In this document: in pieces, positions 48,292-59,707 of the stretch
Numbering within the stretch: the stretch's first letter is position 1
Layout of the letters: each line of letters opens with the position of its first letter
Source: Rhodococcus sp. SGAir0479
Lineage (GTDB): Bacteria > Actinomycetota > Actinomycetes > Mycobacteriales > Mycobacteriaceae
Assembly: GCF_005484805.1 (NCBI RefSeq)
Contig: NZ_CP039432.1
Span: 1,302,001 to 1,366,000, forward strand
Length of the DNA: 64,000 nt
Direction of reading: 5' to 3'
Notes under the pieces: generated by a model
Seen by the model: the letters and a program-made list of their open reading frames with translations, nothing else
Told to the model about the DNA's origin: nothing
Database searches by the model: none
Translations under genes and position numbers: made by a program

Positions 48292-50895
48292 ATGGTCGGT
48301 CTCTGGCCCGTCCTCGATCGCCGCTCGGTGGTCCGGGGCGCAGAGGAACTGCTCCGCGACGGCACCTCGTGCGGGGTGGTGCTGGTCGGCACCGCCGGGG
48401 TGGGCAAGACGACGACGGCACGCGAATTGGTGGGTTCGCTCACCGGCGACGCCCGCTGGATCGTCGGGACCGAATCCACGCAGAACATCCCGCTCGGTGC
48501 TTTCGCGCCGCACCTGGCCCGTACGACGTCGCGTGATCCGGTCGTCGCGCTGCGGGCGGTGCGGGACGTGCTCGCCGAGGACGGTCTGGCCCCCGACGGC
48601 GGGGTGGGGATCGTCGGTGTCGACGACGCGCACCTGCTCGACGAGTTCTCGGCGGGCCTCGTGCACCAGCTGGCGGTCGGGCGCGACGCCCGACTGGTGG
48701 TGACTGTGCGCAGCGGCGCCCCGGTGCCGGGGGCGATCGAGGCCCTGTGGAAGGACGGCCTGCTCACGCCGTTCGTCGTCCCGCCCTTCACGCGCGAGGA
48801 GATGGACCAGGAACTGGCGACGGTGCTGGGTGCTCCCGTCGAGCGGTTCAGCGCCGACGCGATCTGGGAGGAGTCGGAAGGGAACCCGTTGTTCCTGCGG
48901 CACCTGGTGGAGAGCGCGCTCGACGGCGGCACACTGCGGAAGTCCGGTGGCGTGTGGCAGCTGCGGGGTCGGCCCGGTGTCTCCCCGGCGCTCGCGTCGT
49001 TGCTGGAGTCCCGCTTCGCCCGCACCCCTCAGGACGCGCTCGACGTCGTCGACTACCTGGCCTTCTGCGAGCCGCTCGAGCTCGAGGTGCTCAGCGAACT
49101 CGTGGGCCGCCGCTCCATCGAGGAGGCCGAGCGTATGGACCTGGTGCGGGTCCGCGACGTGGGGCACGCCCACGTCGTTCGGCTGGCGCATCCGCTCTTC
49201 GGTGAGGTGATCCGCGACCGCGCCGGCGTCCTGGCCGCGCAGCGGATCAAACGCCGCCTCGTCGAGGTGCTGCGCGAATCGCCGGATCCGGGTGTGGTGA
49301 CGTCGATGCGGATCGCGGAACTGGCGATGGAATCGGGGGTCCAGCCGGACCCGGAGTTGCTGGTGCGCGGCGCCGAGGATGCGATCGCGATGTGCAGCCT
49401 CGAGCAGGGCGCCCGGCTCGCGACTGCGGCGGTGCGGCTCGGTGCCGGCTTCGACGCCTCCTTCGCGCTCGGTCGGGCGCTGATGTGGCAGGGCATGGGA
49501 AACGAGGCCGAGGAGGTGTTCGCGGCCGTCGACCCCGATCGGTTGTGCGAGTACGACGTCGCCCGGTGGTTGCTGACCCGGGTGGCCAGTCTGTACCTCG
49601 AGGCGGGGCGTCCGAGCGACGCGGTCGAGTTGTTCGAGAAGGAACGCGGTCGCATCACCGATCCGGTCCTGAAGGTGTCGGTGGTCGCGCTGGACGCGGT
49701 GCTGCACCTGTACGACTGCCGGCCCGAACGGGCGATCGCGCTGGCCCGCGAGGTGGAGGCGGCGCCCGAGGCGCACCCGTGGGCGCGGGCGAGCGGTGTC
49801 TTCGCCGGCGTCGCGGCCCTCACCGTGTCCGGGCGCGGGTTCGAGGTCGGGGCGCTCGCCTCGTCCGCGTGGGAGGCGATCTCGCACGGGGACGGCCTGC
49901 TCCGCTTCCACATCGGCTACTTCGAGGTGCAGGCGCTCACGCTGGTGGGCCGCCTCGGTGCCGCCCGGGCCACCGCGGCACGGTACCGGGAACTCGCTGC
50001 CGGACAACCCAACAGCGCGGCCCTCGCGGACGTCGCCTCCGGGGTGGTGGAACTGACGAGCGGGCGGCTCGACGAGGCCGCCGCGCATCTCACCGAAGCG
50101 CTGGCCGTTCTCGACCGTGCGACGCGGTCGGAGTGGATGCTGTTGGCGGCGGTCAGCCTGTGCCAGGTGCGGGCGGCGCAGGGACGACCGGAGGACGCGG
50201 CCGCGGCGCTCGGGATCGCGGAGCGGCACGCCGGGCCGGAACTCGCCTTCTTCGACCCGCTGATCGACATCGCTCGCGCCTGGGTCGCGGGCGCGGAGGG
50301 GGAGGTGTCGGCGGCAGCGCACGCCGCCCGGCGCGGCGCCGAGGCGGCGGCAGCGTCCGGACAGTTCGCGATCGAGGTTCTCGCCCTGGATGTCGCGACG
50401 ACGTTCGGCGACTACTCGACCGTCGCCCGGCTCGGTGAACTGGCGAGCGTGGTCGACGGCCCGTTCGGGAAGGTCGCGGCCGCCCGGGCGCGGGCACTGG
50501 CCAAGGCGGACGGTCCGGCGCTCGAGGCACTGGCCGGCGACTTCGAACGCGTGGGCGCACTGCTCGCGGCCGCCGACATGTACGCGCAGGCCGCGACCGC
50601 CTACTCCCGCGCCAACGACCGGCGCGGCGAGCTCGCGGCGGCCGGGAACGCGCACTGGCTGGCCTCGCGGTGCGACGGCGCCACCACTCCGGCCCTCGCG
50701 AAGGCCGCCCGGCCGCTCCCGCTCACCGACCGGGAGCGGGAGGTCGCGGTGCTGGTGGGACGCGGCCTGTCGAACAAGGACATCGCCCGCCGGCTCGTGC
50801 TGTCGGTGCGTACCGTCGAGGGACACATCTACCGGGCGTGCGAGAAACTCGCGCTCAGTCACCGCAGCGACCTGGCCAAACTCGTGCAGGTGTGA
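48292..50895 (+). CDS. Large LuxR-family ATPase regulator (LAL type)
   Basis: This 867-residue regulator has an N-terminal AAA/STAND ATPase with Walker A GTAGVGKTT (residues ~33-41) and Walker B VGIVGVDDAHLLD (~106-118). A long helical middle with TPR-like repeats (~330-780) follows. The C-terminal LuxR helix-turn-helix is LTDREREVAVLVGRGLSNKD, then IARRLVLSVRTVEGHIYRAC (~805-845). Such MalT-like proteins bind a small inducer in the helical part and activate nearby promoters. It lies just upstream of mdh on the same strand; a link is possible but unproven. Confidence 0.88.
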   Translation: MVGLWPVLDRRSVVRGAEELLRDGTSCGVVLVGTAGVGKTTTARELVGSLTGDARWIVGTESTQNIPLGAFAPHLARTTSRDPVVALRAVRDVLAEDGLAPDGGVGIVGVDDAHLLDEFSAGLVHQLAVGRDARLVVTVRSGAPVPGAIEALWKDGLLTPFVVPPFTREEMDQELATVLGAPVERFSADAIWEESEGNPLFLRHLVESALDGGTLRKSGGVWQLRGRPGVSPALASLLESRFARTPQDALDVVDYLAFCEPLELEVLSELVGRRSIEEAERMDLVRVRDVGHAHVVRLAHPLFGEVIRDRAGVLAAQRIKRRLVEVLRESPDPGVVTSMRIAELAMESGVQPDPELLVRGAEDAIAMCSLEQGARLATAAVRLGAGFDASFALGRALMWQGMGNEAEEVFAAVDPDRLCEYDVARWLLTRVASLYLEAGRPSDAVELFEKERGRITDPVLKVSVVALDAVLHLYDCRPERAIALAREVEAAPEAHPWARASGVFAGVAALTVSGRGFEVGALASSAWEAISHGDGLLRFHIGYFEVQALTLVGRLGAARATAARYRELAAGQPNSAALADVASGVVELTSGRLDEAAAHLTEALAVLDRATRSEWMLLAAVSLCQVRAAQGRPEDAAAALGIAERHAGPELAFFDPLIDIARAWVAGAEGEVSAAAHAARRGAEAAAASGQFAIEVLALDVATTFGDYSTVARLGELASVVDGPFGKVAAARARALAKADGPALEALAGDFERVGALLAAADMYAQAATAYSRANDRRGELAAAGNAHWLASRCDGATTPALAKAARPLPLTDREREVAVLVGRGLSNKDIARRLVLSVRTVEGHIYRACEKLALSHRSDLAKLVQV

Positions 50896-53716: not shown

Positions 53717-54415
53717 TCAGTCGTCGGCCTGTGGACAACTCTCGGCGAGCCCGGCCAGGAGGGCGTCTGCGGCAGCGGAGACGGCGTCGACCGGACCGTC
53801 CCACCCGAGGGTGCGGAGGGCGGCGGTCGCGACCGTGTGTGGCGTGACGGCGGACCCGGTCCGATGCGCCGCCGCGTCGGACCGCGCACTGATGGTCGCC
53901 TCGACGAGCCGGAACGGCAGGTCGGCGGTGCCGGGACCGCAGTCCCGGCCACCGATCGCCGCCAGCGCATCGCGCGCGAATGCGGTGTACGTCGCCATCA
54001 GCCGGTCCCGCAGGGACCGGAACTCGGCGAACCGGTCGGTGGTCACCTCGGGCAACAGGTAGAGCGCACCGAGGTTCCATCGGGACCCGGCGAGCTGGCC
54101 GGCGTCGAAGAGGGCCAGCGCGTACACCCGCACGACGGGATCGCCGCAGTGCGCGCGGATCCGTCCGGCCTGCTCCACGGGGCCCGCGACGGTCCCGAGC
54201 AGCAGTGCGGCCAGGATGTCGTCCTTGGTGGAGAAGTGGTGGTACATCGATGCCTGCCGGATGCCGACCGCGTCCGCGATCATCCGCGTCGAGGTGCCGG
54301 TGAATCCCCGGGTGGTGAACAGTTCGGCCGCGGCGTCGAGAATCTCGTCGCGCGCGGTCGCCCCCGGCCGGGTGCGGGTTCTCAGGCGCGGTCTGCCGGC
54401 GCCGGTCGTCGTCAT
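53717..54415 (-). CDS. TetR-family transcriptional regulator
   Basis: This 232-residue protein has an N-terminal TetR helix-turn-helix (ARDEILDAAAELFTTRGFTG then ADAVGIRQASMYHHFSTKDD, residues ~20-66) and a larger ligand-binding helical domain. It is divergent from the permease/DUF1989/carboxyltransferase operon, 241 bp away, and is a candidate regulator of that operon. ATG 54415 is set by the start of the conserved region. The ligand is unknown. Confidence 0.88.
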   Translation of the reverse strand: MTTTGAGRPRLRTRTRPGATARDEILDAAAELFTTRGFTGTSTRMIADAVGIRQASMYHHFSTKDDILAALLLGTVAGPVEQAGRIRAHCGDPVVRVYALALFDAGQLAGSRWNLGALYLLPEVTTDRFAEFRSLRDRLMATYTAFARDALAAIGGRDCGPGTADLPFRLVEATISARSDAAAHRTGSAVTPHTVATAALRTLGWDGPVDAVSAAADALLAGLAESCPQADD

Positions 54416-54481: not shown

Positions 54482-54497
54482 GTCACGTGTGCGTAAC
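54482..54497. promoter_or_regulatory. GlnR-type nitrogen-control box
   Basis: GTCAC-GTGTGC-GTAAC fits the actinobacterial GlnR consensus of two GTNAC-like half-sites separated by six bases. It lies 160 bp before the permease ATG and 67 bp before the divergent TetR start. A separate CTGTC-GAGT-GACAG palindrome lies at 54586-54599, closer to the operon, and could be a TetR operator. Both assignments are inferred from pattern and context. Confidence 0.65.
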
Positions 54498-54656: not shown

Positions 54657-56183
54657 ATGACAGCCGCCGTCGCCGCAGCGTCGAACGACCGGGGTGATCT
54701 GGCCGAGTTCGGCTACGAACAGCAGCTGCACCGTTCCCTCGGCAAGTTCGGGTCCTTCGCGGCCGGCTTCTCGTTCGTCTCGATCCTCACCACGATCTTC
54801 CAATTGTTCGGGCTGGGATTCGGATTCGCGGGCCCGGCCTTCTTCTGGACCTGGCCCGTCGTCTTCCTCGGTCAGTTCATGGTGGCGCTGTGTTTCGCGG
54901 AACTGGCCGCCCGCTACCCGATCTCGGGCGCGATCTACCAGTGGTCCCGGCGGCTCGGCGGCGAGATCGTCGGGTGGTTCGCCGGCTGGTTCATGATCGT
55001 CGCGCAGGTCGTCACCGCGGCGGCCGCGGCGATCGCACTGCAGGTGGTGCTACCGGCGGTCTGGAGCGGGTGCCAGGTGGTCGGGGACGATCCCGCCCTG
55101 ACGTCGGCGAGCGGTGCCGCCAACGCGGTCCTGCTCGGATCGATCCTTTTGGTGCTGACGACGATCATCAACTGCGTCGGCGTGAACTGGATGTCACGGC
55201 TCAACAGCATCGGTGTGACCTGCGAGATCGTCGGTGTCGTCGCGGTGATCGGCATGTTCCTCACCCACGCGCAGCGCGGGCCGGACGTGGTGTTCGACAC
55301 CGGCGGCGCGCAGTCGGGGTACGGCTGGGCCTGGATCGTGTCGGGCCTGATGGCCGCGTACGTCATGGTCGGCTTCGGTTCGGCCGGTGAGCTGGCCGAG
55401 GAGACGCACAACCCGCGCCGGGTCGCACCGCGCACCATCCGACTGGCGCTGTCGGTGTCCGCGCTCGGCGGCGGACTGATGATCGTCGGAGCGCTCATGG
55501 CGGCCCCGAGTCTCACCGACGGGCGACTGGCCACCGAGGGCCTGCCGTACGTGCTGACCTCGATCCTCAGCTCGCCGTGGGGGACGTTGCTGCTGGTCGA
55601 CGTGGCGATCGCGGTGTTCGTGTGCACGCTCGCGATCCAGACCGCGGCGTCGCGGCTGATGTTCTCGATGGCGCGTGACGGCCGGTTGCCGGCCAGTGCC
55701 GTGCTCGCCCGGGTCAACCCCCGCACCGGCACGCCGATCGCGCCCAGCGTCCTCGTCGGAGTGCTGTGCATCGCGGTGCTGGCCGTCAACGTCGGCAACT
55801 CCGCGATCTTCGCGACGCTCTCGAGCGTATGCATCGTGCTGATCTACCTCGCGTACCTCATGGTGACCGTCCCGATGCTCGTCCGGCGCCTGTCCGGCCG
55901 GCCGCTCGGTGGCCCGGAGGTGGACACCGACGGCCGAAAGCTGTTCTCGCTCGGCGTCTTCGGGATACCGGTCAACGTGGCCGCGGTCGCCTACGGCGCG
56001 CTCATGGTCGTCAACCTGTCCTGGCCGCGCGCCGAGATCTTCGATCCCACGGGGGAGTACCCGATCCTCCGGTGGGCCGCGCCGCTCGCGGTGCTCGCCG
56101 TGGTGCTCGTCGGCGCCGCCTGTTGTTCCCCGCGCGGCGCCGCCCGCGCAACCGTTTCCCGTCCCGTCCCGATCGGAGCCTGA
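54657..56183 (+). CDS. APC-superfamily amino acid/amine permease
   Basis: This 508-residue transporter has about 12 membrane helices. Family stretches include a SFVSILTTIFQLFGLGF first helix region, FAELAARYPISGAIYQWSRR, and GFGSAGELAEETHNPRRVAP, which mark the amino acid/choline (ACT/GABA-like) permease group. Members next to urea or guanidine carboxylase genes are presumed to import the nitrogen compound. It starts at ATG 54657 after TAGGAGGG. It is the first gene of a four-gene operon; the next GTG follows the stop after 1 bp. Confidence 0.9.
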   Translation: MTAAVAAASNDRGDLAEFGYEQQLHRSLGKFGSFAAGFSFVSILTTIFQLFGLGFGFAGPAFFWTWPVVFLGQFMVALCFAELAARYPISGAIYQWSRRLGGEIVGWFAGWFMIVAQVVTAAAAAIALQVVLPAVWSGCQVVGDDPALTSASGAANAVLLGSILLVLTTIINCVGVNWMSRLNSIGVTCEIVGVVAVIGMFLTHAQRGPDVVFDTGGAQSGYGWAWIVSGLMAAYVMVGFGSAGELAEETHNPRRVAPRTIRLALSVSALGGGLMIVGALMAAPSLTDGRLATEGLPYVLTSILSSPWGTLLLVDVAIAVFVCTLAIQTAASRLMFSMARDGRLPASAVLARVNPRTGTPIAPSVLVGVLCIAVLAVNVGNSAIFATLSSVCIVLIYLAYLMVTVPMLVRRLSGRPLGGPEVDTDGRKLFSLGVFGIPVNVAAVAYGALMVVNLSWPRAEIFDPTGEYPILRWAAPLAVLAVVLVGAACCSPRGAARATVSRPVPIGA

Positions 56184-56184
56184 A

Positions 56185-57063
56185 GTGACCACCATCGACC
56201 ACGACCGTCCGACCGCCACGTCCACCACGGCCAGCGCCCGCGCGCACGCTCGGGCCCAGGAGGGGACGATCGCCGCCGCGATGCCGGTGGTCCCCGCCGC
56301 CGCCTGGCCCGCTCCGCCCGAGGGCGTCGCCGCCGATCGCCTCGTGTGGGCCGAGACGGTGCCCGGGGGGCGGTACGCGACCAAGGTGCTGGGCCGCGGA
56401 ACCCGCGTGCGCCTGCGTGACCTCGATGGCCGCGCGTGCGCACACGTGCTGTTGCACCGCGCCGACGCGCCGTGGGAGCGGCTGAACGTCGCCGACACCG
56501 TGAAGGTCCCGTGGCAGGCGTACGTCGGTGCGGGTCACCCGCTGCTGTCGGATGCGGGGCGGGTACTCGCCACCGTCGTCGCCGACACCTCCGGGCACCA
56601 CGACGCGCTGTGCGGCACCACCTCCGCGTCCATGAACGGCGCGAAGTACGGTGCGGGCGAGCTGCATTCGTCCTCGCCCGCCGGGCGCGAGCTGTTCACG
56701 GTCGCCGCGGCCAAACACGGGCTGGGGCCGCGCGACCTACCGCCGTCGCTGTCGTTCTTCCACGGCGTGCGCGTCGCTCCGGACGGCGCGCTCGTCTCCA
56801 CCGGGACCGCCGGCGCGGACACGTACGTCGACCTGCTGCTGCACCTGCCGGTGATCGTGTCGATCGCCAACACCGCCCACCCGCTCGACCCGTCCCCGGA
56901 GTTCGCGACGACCGCGCTCGAGATCCTCGCCTGGTCCGCCCCCGAGGACCTCGACGCCCTCCCGAACGACGACCCCGAATACCGCCGCGCCGTACTCAAC
57001 ACCGAGGACGCCTGGACCGCGCGCCGCGGCGCCGCACCGCTCGACGGAAAGGATGCACGATGA
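56185..57063 (+). CDS. DUF1989 urea/guanidine carboxylase-associated protein (longer member)
   Basis: This 292-residue protein has the DUF1989 (PF09347) fold with the longer-member signatures WAETVPGGRYATKVLGRG, RLNVADTVKVPWQAYVGAGH, VVADTSGHHDALCGTTS and SLSFFHGVRVAPDGAL. It is paired with a second DUF1989 protein downstream. In guanidine-degrading bacteria such a pair forms carboxyguanidine deiminase (CgdAB), which converts carboxyguanidine to allophanate and ammonia. GTG 56185 follows GGAG at 56175-56178. It overlaps the next gene (ATGA). Function is inferred from family and operon. Confidence 0.88.
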   Translation: MTTIDHDRPTATSTTASARAHARAQEGTIAAAMPVVPAAAWPAPPEGVAADRLVWAETVPGGRYATKVLGRGTRVRLRDLDGRACAHVLLHRADAPWERLNVADTVKVPWQAYVGAGHPLLSDAGRVLATVVADTSGHHDALCGTTSASMNGAKYGAGELHSSSPAGRELFTVAAAKHGLGPRDLPPSLSFFHGVRVAPDGALVSTGTAGADTYVDLLLHLPVIVSIANTAHPLDPSPEFATTALEILAWSAPEDLDALPNDDPEYRRAVLNTEDAWTARRGAAPLDGKDAR

Positions 57064-57725
57064 CCGCCCTGCTGCCCGCACCCCACGACCTCGCCCTGAT
57101 CCCGGGAGAGATCCTGCTCGACGAGACCGTCGCCCCCCGCGGACCGTGGTCCGCAGTCGTGGCCGCCGGCGACGTCCTGACCGTCGTCGACCTGCACGGT
57201 AACCAGGCGGTCGACACCCTGATCTACGCCGCCTCCGACCACTCCCGGCGCTACTCGGCGGCGGCCACGGTCGTCGCGCAGCGCAACCTCTTCCTCACCG
57301 CCGGCAGCGTCCTGCGCGCCGACGACGGGACCCCGCTGATGACGATCGTCGCCGACGAGGTCGGCAATCACGACACCGTCGGCGGTGCGTGCTCGCAGGA
57401 GTCGAACACCCTGCGCTACGGGCACCACACCAAGCACCAGCACGCGTGCGTCGAGAACTTCCTCGTCGAGGGCGCCCGGTGGGGGCTGGGCAAACGCGAC
57501 CTGGTCTCCAACATCAACTTCTTCATGAACGTCCCGGTGGACCCCGACGGTGCGCTCGGCATCGTCGACGGCCTGTCCGCGCCCGGCAAGCGCCTGGCCC
57601 TGCGCGCCGAAGTCGACGCGCTCGTCCTCGTCTCCAACTGCCCACAGATCAACAACCCGTGCAACGGGTTCGACCCGACCGCGGTCCGCATGATCGTGAC
57701 CCGGCCGCAGGAGGTGCGCGCATGA
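57060..57725 (+). CDS. DUF1989 urea/guanidine carboxylase-associated protein (shorter member)
   Basis: This 221-residue second DUF1989 protein carries the motif-rich GGACSQESNTLRYGHHTKHQ with following HACVENFL, KRDLVSNINFFMNVPVDPDG and NCPQINNPCNGFDPT. The clustered cysteine and histidine residues suggest a metal site. Together with the upstream protein it probably forms a two-subunit deiminase of the CgdAB type. It overlaps both neighbours by 4 bp. The older names are UAAP1/UAAP2; I avoid a number because usage is inconsistent. Confidence 0.9.
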   Translation: MTALLPAPHDLALIPGEILLDETVAPRGPWSAVVAAGDVLTVVDLHGNQAVDTLIYAASDHSRRYSAAATVVAQRNLFLTAGSVLRADDGTPLMTIVADEVGNHDTVGGACSQESNTLRYGHHTKHQHACVENFLVEGARWGLGKRDLVSNINFFMNVPVDPDGALGIVDGLSAPGKRLALRAEVDALVLVSNCPQINNPCNGFDPTAVRMIVTRPQEVRA

Positions 57726-59707
57726 CCGCCAAGTGCACGGTGCTGCGGCCCGGGATGGCCACCACGGTCCAGGACTACCCGGGCCGCACGGGCTACTGGC
57801 AGATCGGGGTGCCGCCGTCCGGCCCGATGGACGACCTGTCGCTGCGGCTCGGCAACCTCGCCGTCGGAAACTCGGAGGGCGCACCCGGTTTCGAGGCGCT
57901 GATGGGCGGGCCGGCACTCCGGTTCGACGAGCCCACCCACGTGTGCGTCACCGGCGCTCCGACACGCGTCACGGTCGACGGCGCGGTGGTACCGCAGTGG
58001 CGGCCGGTGCTCGTGCCCGCCGGGGGAGTGCTGGACGTCGGCACTGTCGCCGGGCCGGGGCTGCGTGTCTACGTCCTGATCGCCGGCGGGATCGACGTCC
58101 CCGAATTCCTCGGGGCCGCAGCGACGTTCACGCTCGGCCGGTTCGGCGGCCTGGACGGGCGGACGCTACGCGAGGGCGACGTCCTGGCGCTCGGGGACGC
58201 GCCGACGTCCGCGCCGGTCGCCGTCCCGTCCGACGCCGTCCCGGCCCTGTCGGAGCGCTGGGAGCTCGCGGTCACCGAGGGCCCGCACGGTGCCCCCGAG
58301 TTCTTCACCCGCGAAGACATCGACACGCTGTATCGCACCGACTACGAGGTGCACTTCAACTCCGACCGGACGGGCGTGCGGTTGATCGGCCCCCAGCCGG
58401 ACTGGGCGCGACCGGACGGCGGGGAGGCGGGCCTGCATCCGTCGAACATCCACGACAACGCGTATTCGATCGGTGCCCTGGACTTCACCGGTGACACCCC
58501 GATCCTGCTGGGCCCCGACGGCCCCAGCCTGGGCGGCTTCGTGTGCCCGGTGACGGTCGTGGCGGCCGACCGGTGGAAGCTCGGACAGCTCGCGCCCGGC
58601 AACACGGTGCGGTTCGTGCCGGTGCGATCCACGCACGCGGCGTCCCGGCGGGAGCTGGGCCCGGGCCGACGCGCAGCGCTGCCCGCCGTGCTCTCGACCG
58701 GCGGCGACGGCGATGACGGCGTGCTGGCCCGGCGCGACGGCGACACGGCGGTGACGTACCGCCGCTCGGGTGACGACAACGTCCTGGTCGAGTACGGCGA
58801 GATGACCCTCGATCTGGGTCTGCGCGCCCGGGTGCACGCGCTGCACCAGCACCTCGACGCCCACCGCCCCGCCGGGCTGCTGGACCTCACGCCGGGGATC
58901 CGGTCGCTGCAGGTCCGCGTCGACCCCGATGTCCTGCCGGTGCCGGCGCTGCTGGGGCTGCTCGCGGAGGCCGAGGAGCAGATCCCCGCCGCGAACGAAC
59001 TGGTGGTGCCGAGCCGGACCGTGCGGATGCCGTTGTCGTGGGACGACCCGGCCACCCGCGAGGCCATCGCCCGGTACATGCACGGCGTGCGCGCGGACGC
59101 GCCGTGGTGCCCGTGGAACATCGAGTTCATCCGCCGGATGAACGGCCTCGATTCGGTGAACGACGTCTTCGACACCGTGTTCGGCGCCGAGTACATGGTG
59201 CTCGGGCTGGGCGACGTGTACCTCGGGGCGCCGGTGGCGACTCCGCTCGATCCGCGACACCGACTGGTCACCACCAAGTACAACCCGGCCCGGACCTGGA
59301 CTCCGGAGAACGCGGTCGGCATCGGCGGCGCCTACCTGTGCATCTACGGCATGGAAGGCCCGGGCGGTTACCAGTTCGTCGGGCGCACCACGCAGGTGTG
59401 GAACCACCGGCACCCGGGCTCGGCGGCCCCGTTCGAGGAGGGGACGCCGTGGCTGCTGCGCTTCTTCGACCGGATCTCCTGGTACCCCGTGGATCCGGAC
59501 GAGTTGCTGGACCTGCGGGCCGACCTGGCCGCCGGGCGGGGACCGGGCGGCATCGAGATCGTGGACGGGAGTTTCTCGCTGGCCCAGCACCAGCGCTTCC
59601 TCGCCGACAACGCTGCGCCGATCGAGGCCTTCCGCGCGACGCAGGCGGTCGCGTTCGCCGACGAGCGCCACCGGTGGGCCGCCGCGGGCGAATTCGCGCG
59701 CCGCTGA
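57722..59707 (+). CDS. Carboxyltransferase-only urea/guanidine carboxylase homologue
   Basis: This 661-residue protein corresponds to the middle part of urea or guanidine carboxylase. The AHS2/KipA-like half (TVLRPGMATTVQDYPGRTGY, residues ~5-300) comes first. The AHS1/KipI-like half (YRRSGDDNVLVEYGEMTLDL, ~340-450) follows, and then the carboxylase-specific stretch (MPLSWDDPATREAIARYMHG; LVTTKYNPARTWTPENAVGI). A full enzyme has a biotin carboxylase domain before and a biotin-carrier domain after; both are absent. The protein starts exactly at the carboxyltransferase border and ends after the helical tail, with no MKM biotin motif. No allophanate hydrolase follows. ATG 57722 overlaps the upstream gene. 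A partner subunit must come from elsewhere, or the chemistry is biotin-independent. Confidence 0.9.
   Translation: MTAKCTVLRPGMATTVQDYPGRTGYWQIGVPPSGPMDDLSLRLGNLAVGNSEGAPGFEALMGGPALRFDEPTHVCVTGAPTRVTVDGAVVPQWRPVLVPAGGVLDVGTVAGPGLRVYVLIAGGIDVPEFLGAAATFTLGRFGGLDGRTLREGDVLALGDAPTSAPVAVPSDAVPALSERWELAVTEGPHGAPEFFTREDIDTLYRTDYEVHFNSDRTGVRLIGPQPDWARPDGGEAGLHPSNIHDNAYSIGALDFTGDTPILLGPDGPSLGGFVCPVTVVAADRWKLGQLAPGNTVRFVPVRSTHAASRRELGPGRRAALPAVLSTGGDGDDGVLARRDGDTAVTYRRSGDDNVLVEYGEMTLDLGLRARVHALHQHLDAHRPAGLLDLTPGIRSLQVRVDPDVLPVPALLGLLAEAEEQIPAANELVVPSRTVRMPLSWDDPATREAIARYMHGVRADAPWCPWNIEFIRRMNGLDSVNDVFDTVFGAEYMVLGLGDVYLGAPVATPLDPRHRLVTTKYNPARTWTPENAVGIGGAYLCIYGMEGPGGYQFVGRTTQVWNHRHPGSAAPFEEGTPWLLRFFDRISWYPVDPDELLDLRADLAAGRGPGGIEIVDGSFSLAQHQRFLADNAAPIEAFRATQAVAFADERHRWAAAGEFARR

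Follow-up and report, generated by a model that had tools for sequence, protein, structure and literature searches.

The 64-kb window analyzed here (C1:1302001-1366000 in the 4.97-Mb genome of Rhodococcus sp. SGAir0479) contains a gene for a carboxyltransferase (CT) of the guanidine/urea carboxylase type that lacks the biotin carboxylase (BC) and biotin carboxyl carrier protein (BCCP) domains (57722..59707, plus strand; 661 amino acids [aa]). Based on Pfam, NCBIfam, alignment, and the ratio of nonsynonymous to synonymous substitution rates (dN/dS), we annotated its product as a CT-only guanidine carboxylase. Three genes lie upstream on the same strand: a permease of the urea carboxylase system (54657..56183; TIGR03428, 891.2 bits, cut-off 740.45) and two DUF1989 genes, UAAP1 (56185..57063; TIGR03425, 288.1 bits, cut-off 205.95; PF09347) and UAAP2 (57060..57725; TIGR03424, 328.7 bits, cut-off 284.7). 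The ATG start of the CT-only gene at 57722 overlaps the UAAP2 stop codon (ATGA), and its own stop codon ends at 59707. The permease is likely a guanidine importer. UAAP1 and UAAP2 are, by published assignment, the subunits of carboxyguanidine deiminase (PMC11410670).

Pfam detected CT_A_B (residues 28 to 300) and CT_C_D (residues 345 to 563) in the 661-aa protein and nothing else, neither a BC domain nor a BCCP domain with a biotinyl site. The NCBIfam urea carboxylase profile TIGR02712 begins to match only at profile position 449 and stops at position 1112 of 1201, i.e., it covers the CT part and the tail, and the score of 951.6 bits is below the cut-off of 1303.85. All five BC and all nine biotin/lipoyl domains detected in the genome are located outside the window. 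The initial annotation had described an intact carboxyltransferase cut at domain borders, with no BC or BCCP gene nearby, and the frame, the ends, and both profile analyses confirm this description. The median dN/dS of the gene was 0.107 (28 pairs from 8 sequences of the genus); for the CT region of a full-length homologue, described below, the value was 0.129 (55 pairs). The gene is under purifying selection and is not decaying. Loss of the biotin domains implies that the carboxyl group must come from another protein or that the enzyme has acquired a new way of working.

Specificity and catalytic residues

According to a published rule, Asp at position 1330 of the Kluyveromyces lactis enzyme indicates guanidine and Asn indicates urea as the substrate (PMC11410670). 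Residues of the window protein were mapped to the K. lactis numbering by alignment to 5i8i, which placed Asp254 (codon 58481..58483, plus strand) at the 1330 site, the guanidine-type marker. The same residue is Asp in all 91 CT-only sequences of the main clade described below (clade 1) and in 49/49 actinobacterial full-length enzymes of the guanidine type, Asn in 12/12 urea-type enzymes of the family, and Met in both sequences of a second CT-only lineage. Asp498 (59213..59215, plus strand) corresponds to K. lactis Asp1584, and Lys519 (59276..59278, plus strand) corresponds to Lys1605, which acts as the general base in the K. lactis enzyme (PMC5770610). Both are kept in 91/91 clade-1 sequences. 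The window protein therefore carries the two residues that the rule assigns to guanidine carboxylases, Asp at 1584 (D498) and Asp at 1330 (D254).

A full-length homologue of 1203 aa is encoded about 1.85 Mb from the window (C1:3208017-3211586; TIGR02712, 1674.8 bits, above the cut-off). The CT identity is 60 to 62%; unlike the CT-only protein, this homologue is complete, has Asn at the 1330 site, and lies downstream of the urea-transporter genes for UrtA, UrtB, and UrtD (L009, C1:3199500-3219000). By these marks, it is predicted to be a urea carboxylase. Because the CT-only protein has Asp at the 1330 site and a separate Asn-type enzyme is found near the Urt genes, guanidine rather than urea is the probable substrate, and urea was rejected on the basis of Asp254. 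Of the two routes that had originally been considered, a variant of guanidine utilization thus stands and a variant of urea utilization does not. A complete carboxylase elsewhere in the genome, which the initial annotation had listed as a finding that would speak against it, is indeed present; however, it differs in the specificity residue, such an enzyme is missing from 129 of the 301 family genomes discussed below, and its presence leaves the CT-only form unexplained.

The remaining genes of a guanidine pathway are also found. The only DUF1989 genes detected in the genome are the two that adjoin the CT-only gene, and a search for allophanate hydrolase, as suggested in the initial annotation, returned a single gene above its cut-off, located elsewhere in the genome (C1:757597).

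Distribution and phylogeny of the CT-only form

To follow the architecture across genomes, homologues were classed by the length remaining after the CT match (>60 residues, full length), a measure that agreed with BC and BCCP matches in 80 named loci, the best among the matches listed. Within the genus, an intact CT-only gene occurs in 8 of 14 genomes (86 to 100% identity), and a ninth genome has it in pieces. The family sample of 301 genomes gave a CT match at an E value of ≤1e-100 in 207 genomes and a full-length match above the cut-off in 72. In 129 of the 301, the best match was of CT-only size and no full-length homologue was present; these genomes were picked by eye (best E values of about 1e-270 to 1e-298), their number was checked, and some of their loci were opened. 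Within the genus, a full-length homologue accompanies the intact CT-only gene in all 8 genomes, which would fit a situation in which the CT-only protein borrows BC and BCCP from the complete urea carboxylase present in the cell. Since 129 genomes do without such a homologue, a full-length partner is unnecessary. Dependence on one was therefore rejected, such borrowing is excluded as a general mechanism, and we regard it as very improbable.

The 80 named loci comprised 42 full-length loci, 19 of them from Streptomyces, and 38 CT-only loci, from Nocardia (11), Rhodococcus (9), Mycobacterium (7), Mycolicibacterium (3), Williamsia (3), Gordonia (2), Rhodococcoides (1), Skermania (1), and Dietzia (1). 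tblastn searches of up to 8 kb on each side detected BC or BCCP in none of the 38 CT-only loci and both in 42/42 full-length loci. The domains were likewise absent from 17 further CT-only loci, from five others (one of them split, in genome G293), and from three more. BC and BCCP in adjacent reading frames of close relatives, another finding that would have spoken against the initial annotation, turned up at no CT-only locus that was opened, and this candidate was rejected. UAAP1 and UAAP2 lie upstream of the CT-only gene in 38/38 named CT-only loci, and allophanate hydrolase was present within the locus DNA examined in 18 of them. Outside the family, a class-level sample of 394 genomes yielded 32 genomes with a match at an E value of ≤1e-120; 30 of these were long frames and 2 were short, one of the latter being cut by a contig end.

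A tree built from 145 CT sequences and rooted with the 12 urea-type rows placed 88/88 CT-only rows in one clade (SH-aLRT, 99; one change) nested among the full-length actinobacterial guanidine carboxylases, and 91 CT-only rows again formed a single clade in a larger CT tree. These CT-only proteins form a clade with the same neighbors, a point that the initial annotation had proposed to test, and the architecture is clade-wide and not a local oddity. A decaying remnant or an assembly artifact could be argued from the split copies found in two genomes, but the dN/dS of 0.107, the single clade of 88 rows, and the intact frames in the loci opened refute this explanation for the clade as a whole, and we give it next to no weight.

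Two side observations concern individual loci. Split CT-only genes occur in G293 (C2:4389248-4391303, L259) and G003 (C1:3947254-3949230, 79% complete), within operons or assemblies that are otherwise preserved, and reflect either decay or sequencing error. Full-length guanidine carboxylases occupy the same operon slot at L082, L083, L084, and L305, within the same family, and at L130 (Mycobacterium sp. 1465703.0). The enzymes of L082 to L084 and L305 fall outside the CT-only clade; the five full-length copies, which lend themselves to comparison with the CT-only form, were perhaps acquired by transfer.

A second CT-only lineage, about 50% identical to the window protein, is represented by L300 (genome G380) and L301 (genome G458, cut by a contig end). 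At L300, genes for a permease, UAAP1, UAAP2, CT, and allophanate hydrolase follow each other in a row, neither BC nor BCCP was found in the locus, and a guanidine-I riboswitch (L300:6402-6508; 80.2 bits, gathering score 63) lies just before the permease gene. When both CT-only lineages were constrained to one clade, the approximately unbiased (AU) test on the CT tree did not reject a common origin (p-AU, 0.177). The test on the UAAP1+UAAP2 tree rejected it (p-AU, 3.9e-65), with long branches in play; this tree held 53 of 55 rows, the window and L149 being left out (one UAAP was not picked up).

Residues changed with the domain loss

Comparison with 69 full-length sequences, including eight from plasmids of proteobacteria and an enterococcus, revealed two substitutions that accompany the loss of the biotin domains. 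Among 283 columns fixed in CT-only proteins, only Asp215 and His562 hold a residue that is present in ≤10% of the actinobacterial full-length relatives. Asp215 (codon 58364..58366, plus strand) is found in 93/93 CT-only and 0/69 full-length sequences, and His562 (codon 59405..59407, plus strand) is found in 92/92 CT-only sequences with data and 0/69 full-length sequences. Both residues occur in the two CT-only lineages, the position of His562 being unseen in L301 because of the contig end. Other changes are limited: of 290 columns that are ≥97% fixed in full-length relatives, 243 are still fixed in the CT-only proteins. Relaxed columns concentrate in residues 91 to 160 (5/26, P = 0.045) and in the tail, 601 to 661 (5/17, P = 0.007; seven regions, P values uncorrected), and are rare in residues 161 to 310 (3/70) and 481 to 600 (3/79).

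These residues raise the possibility of a biotin-free guanidine carboxylation, in which the CT fold with Asp215 and His562 would make direct use of bicarbonate and ATP or of some other activated carboxyl donor. Asp215 and His562 are the sole new fixed residues by the criterion above and occur in both lineages, and the 5-oxoprolinase subunits PxpB and PxpC (KipI/KipA) have the same fold and work without biotin domains. However, residues 161 to 310 and 481 to 600 are hardly relaxed, the general base and the catalytic Asp are kept, and a large change of chemistry would have to rest on just two new residues. No nucleotide-binding motif was noted either, though no search aimed at one was made. We consider a biotin-free reaction rather unlikely, although it is the main competitor. 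A more specific proposal is tentative and likewise improbable: in biotin-free enzymes, a new Asp215-His562 pair, one residue per CT half, would have taken over the task of activating or positioning the carboxyl donor, and this would have happened twice among actinobacteria, in separate lineages.

The new fixed residues, together with Met in place of Asp at the specificity site of the second lineage, could also mean that the CT-only protein supplies UAAP1/UAAP2 by a different reaction, on a guanidino compound, and does not carboxylate free guanidine. This is doubtful, given the guanidine-type Asp in 91/91 clade-1 sequences and the guanidine-I riboswitch in front of one second-lineage operon; moreover, UAAP1/UAAP2 and allophanate hydrolase catalyze the known steps after carboxyguanidine (PMC11410670).

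Candidate carboxyl donors

BC genes were present in 78/78 genomes checked out of the 129, with 2 to 10 genes each. The five BC domains of the window genome belong to pyruvate carboxylase (PC), the urea carboxylase, and three acyl-CoA carboxylase alpha subunits. The alpha subunits of other genomes were named by similarity to these three and by their neighbors, and we take the resulting names, AccA1, AccA2, and AccA3, to correspond to the mycobacterial ones. The genomes with minimal BC sets narrow the choice: G165 has PC, AccA3, and AccA1; G049 has PC, AccA3, and AccA2; and G028 has AccA1, AccA2, and AccA3, which leaves AccA3 as the sole BC gene common to the three. In the literature, AccA3 is the alpha subunit common to acyl-CoA carboxylases 4, 5, and 6 of Mycobacterium tuberculosis (PMC11001197), while AccA1 is described as paired with AccD1 and AccA2 as paired with AccD2 (PMC4347857).

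Frames of 72 to 94 aa that encode stand-alone biotin/lipoyl carriers with no known partner were observed in G000, G028, G124, G165, and G299; the one of the window genome is located at C1:2695629-2695829. A dedicated small carrier was rejected as the general donor because G020 and G049 are devoid of such frames.

Taken together, we lean slightly toward a model in which the CT-only protein is the carboxyltransferase of a guanidine assimilation pathway and receives carboxybiotin in trans from an AccA-type alpha subunit, with AccA3 as the best candidate. We infer from the residues and the operon that it carboxylates guanidine, with the BCCP domain of an AccA-type protein as the probable donor. 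Several points weigh against this model. G020 (C1, 3157527 bases) has an intact CT-only operon, but PC and AccA2 are the only BC genes found in it; AccA3 was detected neither by three profile searches nor in about 0.78 Mb of its DNA that was read, a result that an assembly gap may explain. No alpha subunit is accordingly common to all four minimal genomes (G165, G049, G028, and G020), which is in line with a biotin-free reaction. The comparison concerns gene presence; nothing was found that ties CT-only genes to an alpha subunit physically or genetically, and no domain of the CT-only protein is known to dock such a subunit. In addition, Asp215 and His562 became fixed alongside the domain loss in both lineages, and plain in-trans donation would not demand them. 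Elimination favors AccA3 as the donor, with one exception genome (G020), while Asp215 and His562 do not clearly favor either of the two models of the initial annotation, the AccA-type donor or the biotin-free reaction.

Regulatory context

A divergent gene for a TetR-family regulator precedes the operon (53717..54415, minus strand; TetR_N, 8e-17); its longest frame extends to 54565, and the start near 54415 is an estimate. TetR genes are also found close to many of the related operons. The divergent promoter region contains a GlnR-type box, GTCACGTGTGCGTAAC (54482..54497, plus strand), the only exact match in the window to a motif taken from Mycobacterium smegmatis (PMC3662644). The count in 64 kb is at chance level (1 found, 1.27 expected), and the box is notable for its position only. 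Downstream, a gene for an MFS transporter starts 142 bases after the CT-only gene and is outside the set common to the related loci. No guanidine riboswitch was detected between positions 50000 and 64000 of the window or in 13 clade-1 loci (8 plus 5), and no guanidine-I riboswitch was detected in six full-length actinobacterial loci scanned.

Published data on M. smegmatis concern what may be an operon of the same kind. Under nitrogen starvation, transcript levels in the wild type exceeded those of a glnR mutant 48-fold for msmeg_2184 (permease), 13-fold for msmeg_2185, 32-fold for msmeg_2186, 3-fold for msmeg_2187 ("urea amidolyase"), and 4-fold for msmeg_2189 (allophanate hydrolase), and the TetR-type regulator AmtR, which the TetR regulator of the window resembles in position, is a second regulator (PMC4222082). 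A site bound by GlnR lies upstream of msmeg_2184 (PMC3662644). M. smegmatis did not grow on urea, and the authors called the gene functions highly speculative (PMC4222082). Judging from the named Mycolicibacterium loci, MSMEG_2187 is probably a CT-only protein.

Discussion

The proposed model would start from an ordinary BC-CT-BCCP guanidine carboxylase, which would have lost both BC and BCCP in one event close to the root of a clade of Mycobacteriales. Guanidine would be imported by the permease and converted to carboxyguanidine by the CT-only enzyme, UAAP1/UAAP2 would deiminate carboxyguanidine to allophanate, and allophanate hydrolase, encoded elsewhere in the window genome, would release ammonia and CO2. 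Carboxybiotin on a BCCP domain would supply the carboxyl group. This domain would belong to the alpha subunit of an acyl-CoA carboxylase; in most genomes the subunit would be AccA3, on which several mycobacterial carboxyltransferases already depend. The chemistry of the pathway and the sharing of AccA3 are taken from the literature.

The closest known relatives are the full-length actinobacterial guanidine carboxylases, whose CT parts are 63 to 75% identical, which have Asp at the 1330 site, and whose operons likewise include UAAP1 and UAAP2 and, as a rule, allophanate hydrolase. The window protein differs from them in the absence of BC and BCCP and in having Asp215 and His562 where the full-length enzymes have Ala/Ser and other residues, respectively. 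PxpB and PxpC consist of the same two CT half-folds, without BC or BCCP, but they are short separate proteins; the window protein falls far short of the respective cut-offs (128.5 against 500 and 29.7 against 145.55), and a PxpC-type match is present elsewhere in the window genome. The arrangement proposed here, a carboxyltransferase without its own BC-BCCP, resembles that of the mycobacterial acyl-CoA carboxylases that share AccA3 (PMC11001197). Their beta subunits, however, belong to another CT family and form stable complexes, and no such interaction is known for a CT-only protein. The relevant passages of a 2011 survey of the enzyme family describe full-length urea carboxylases and separate half-CT genes and name no CT-only form (PMC3199775). 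Our literature search, which covered mainly open-access papers, returned none that describes a guanidine carboxylase lacking BC and BCCP.

In the sampled family, CT-only is the commoner form of the enzyme, yet its database records are labeled urea carboxylase or urea amidolyase. If AccA3 is the donor, a single carboxybiotin pool would serve both nitrogen scavenging and lipid synthesis; if biotin is not involved, the enzyme would represent a new carboxylation chemistry. Searches that rely on the full-length profile and its cut-off also overlook the use of guanidine by these bacteria.

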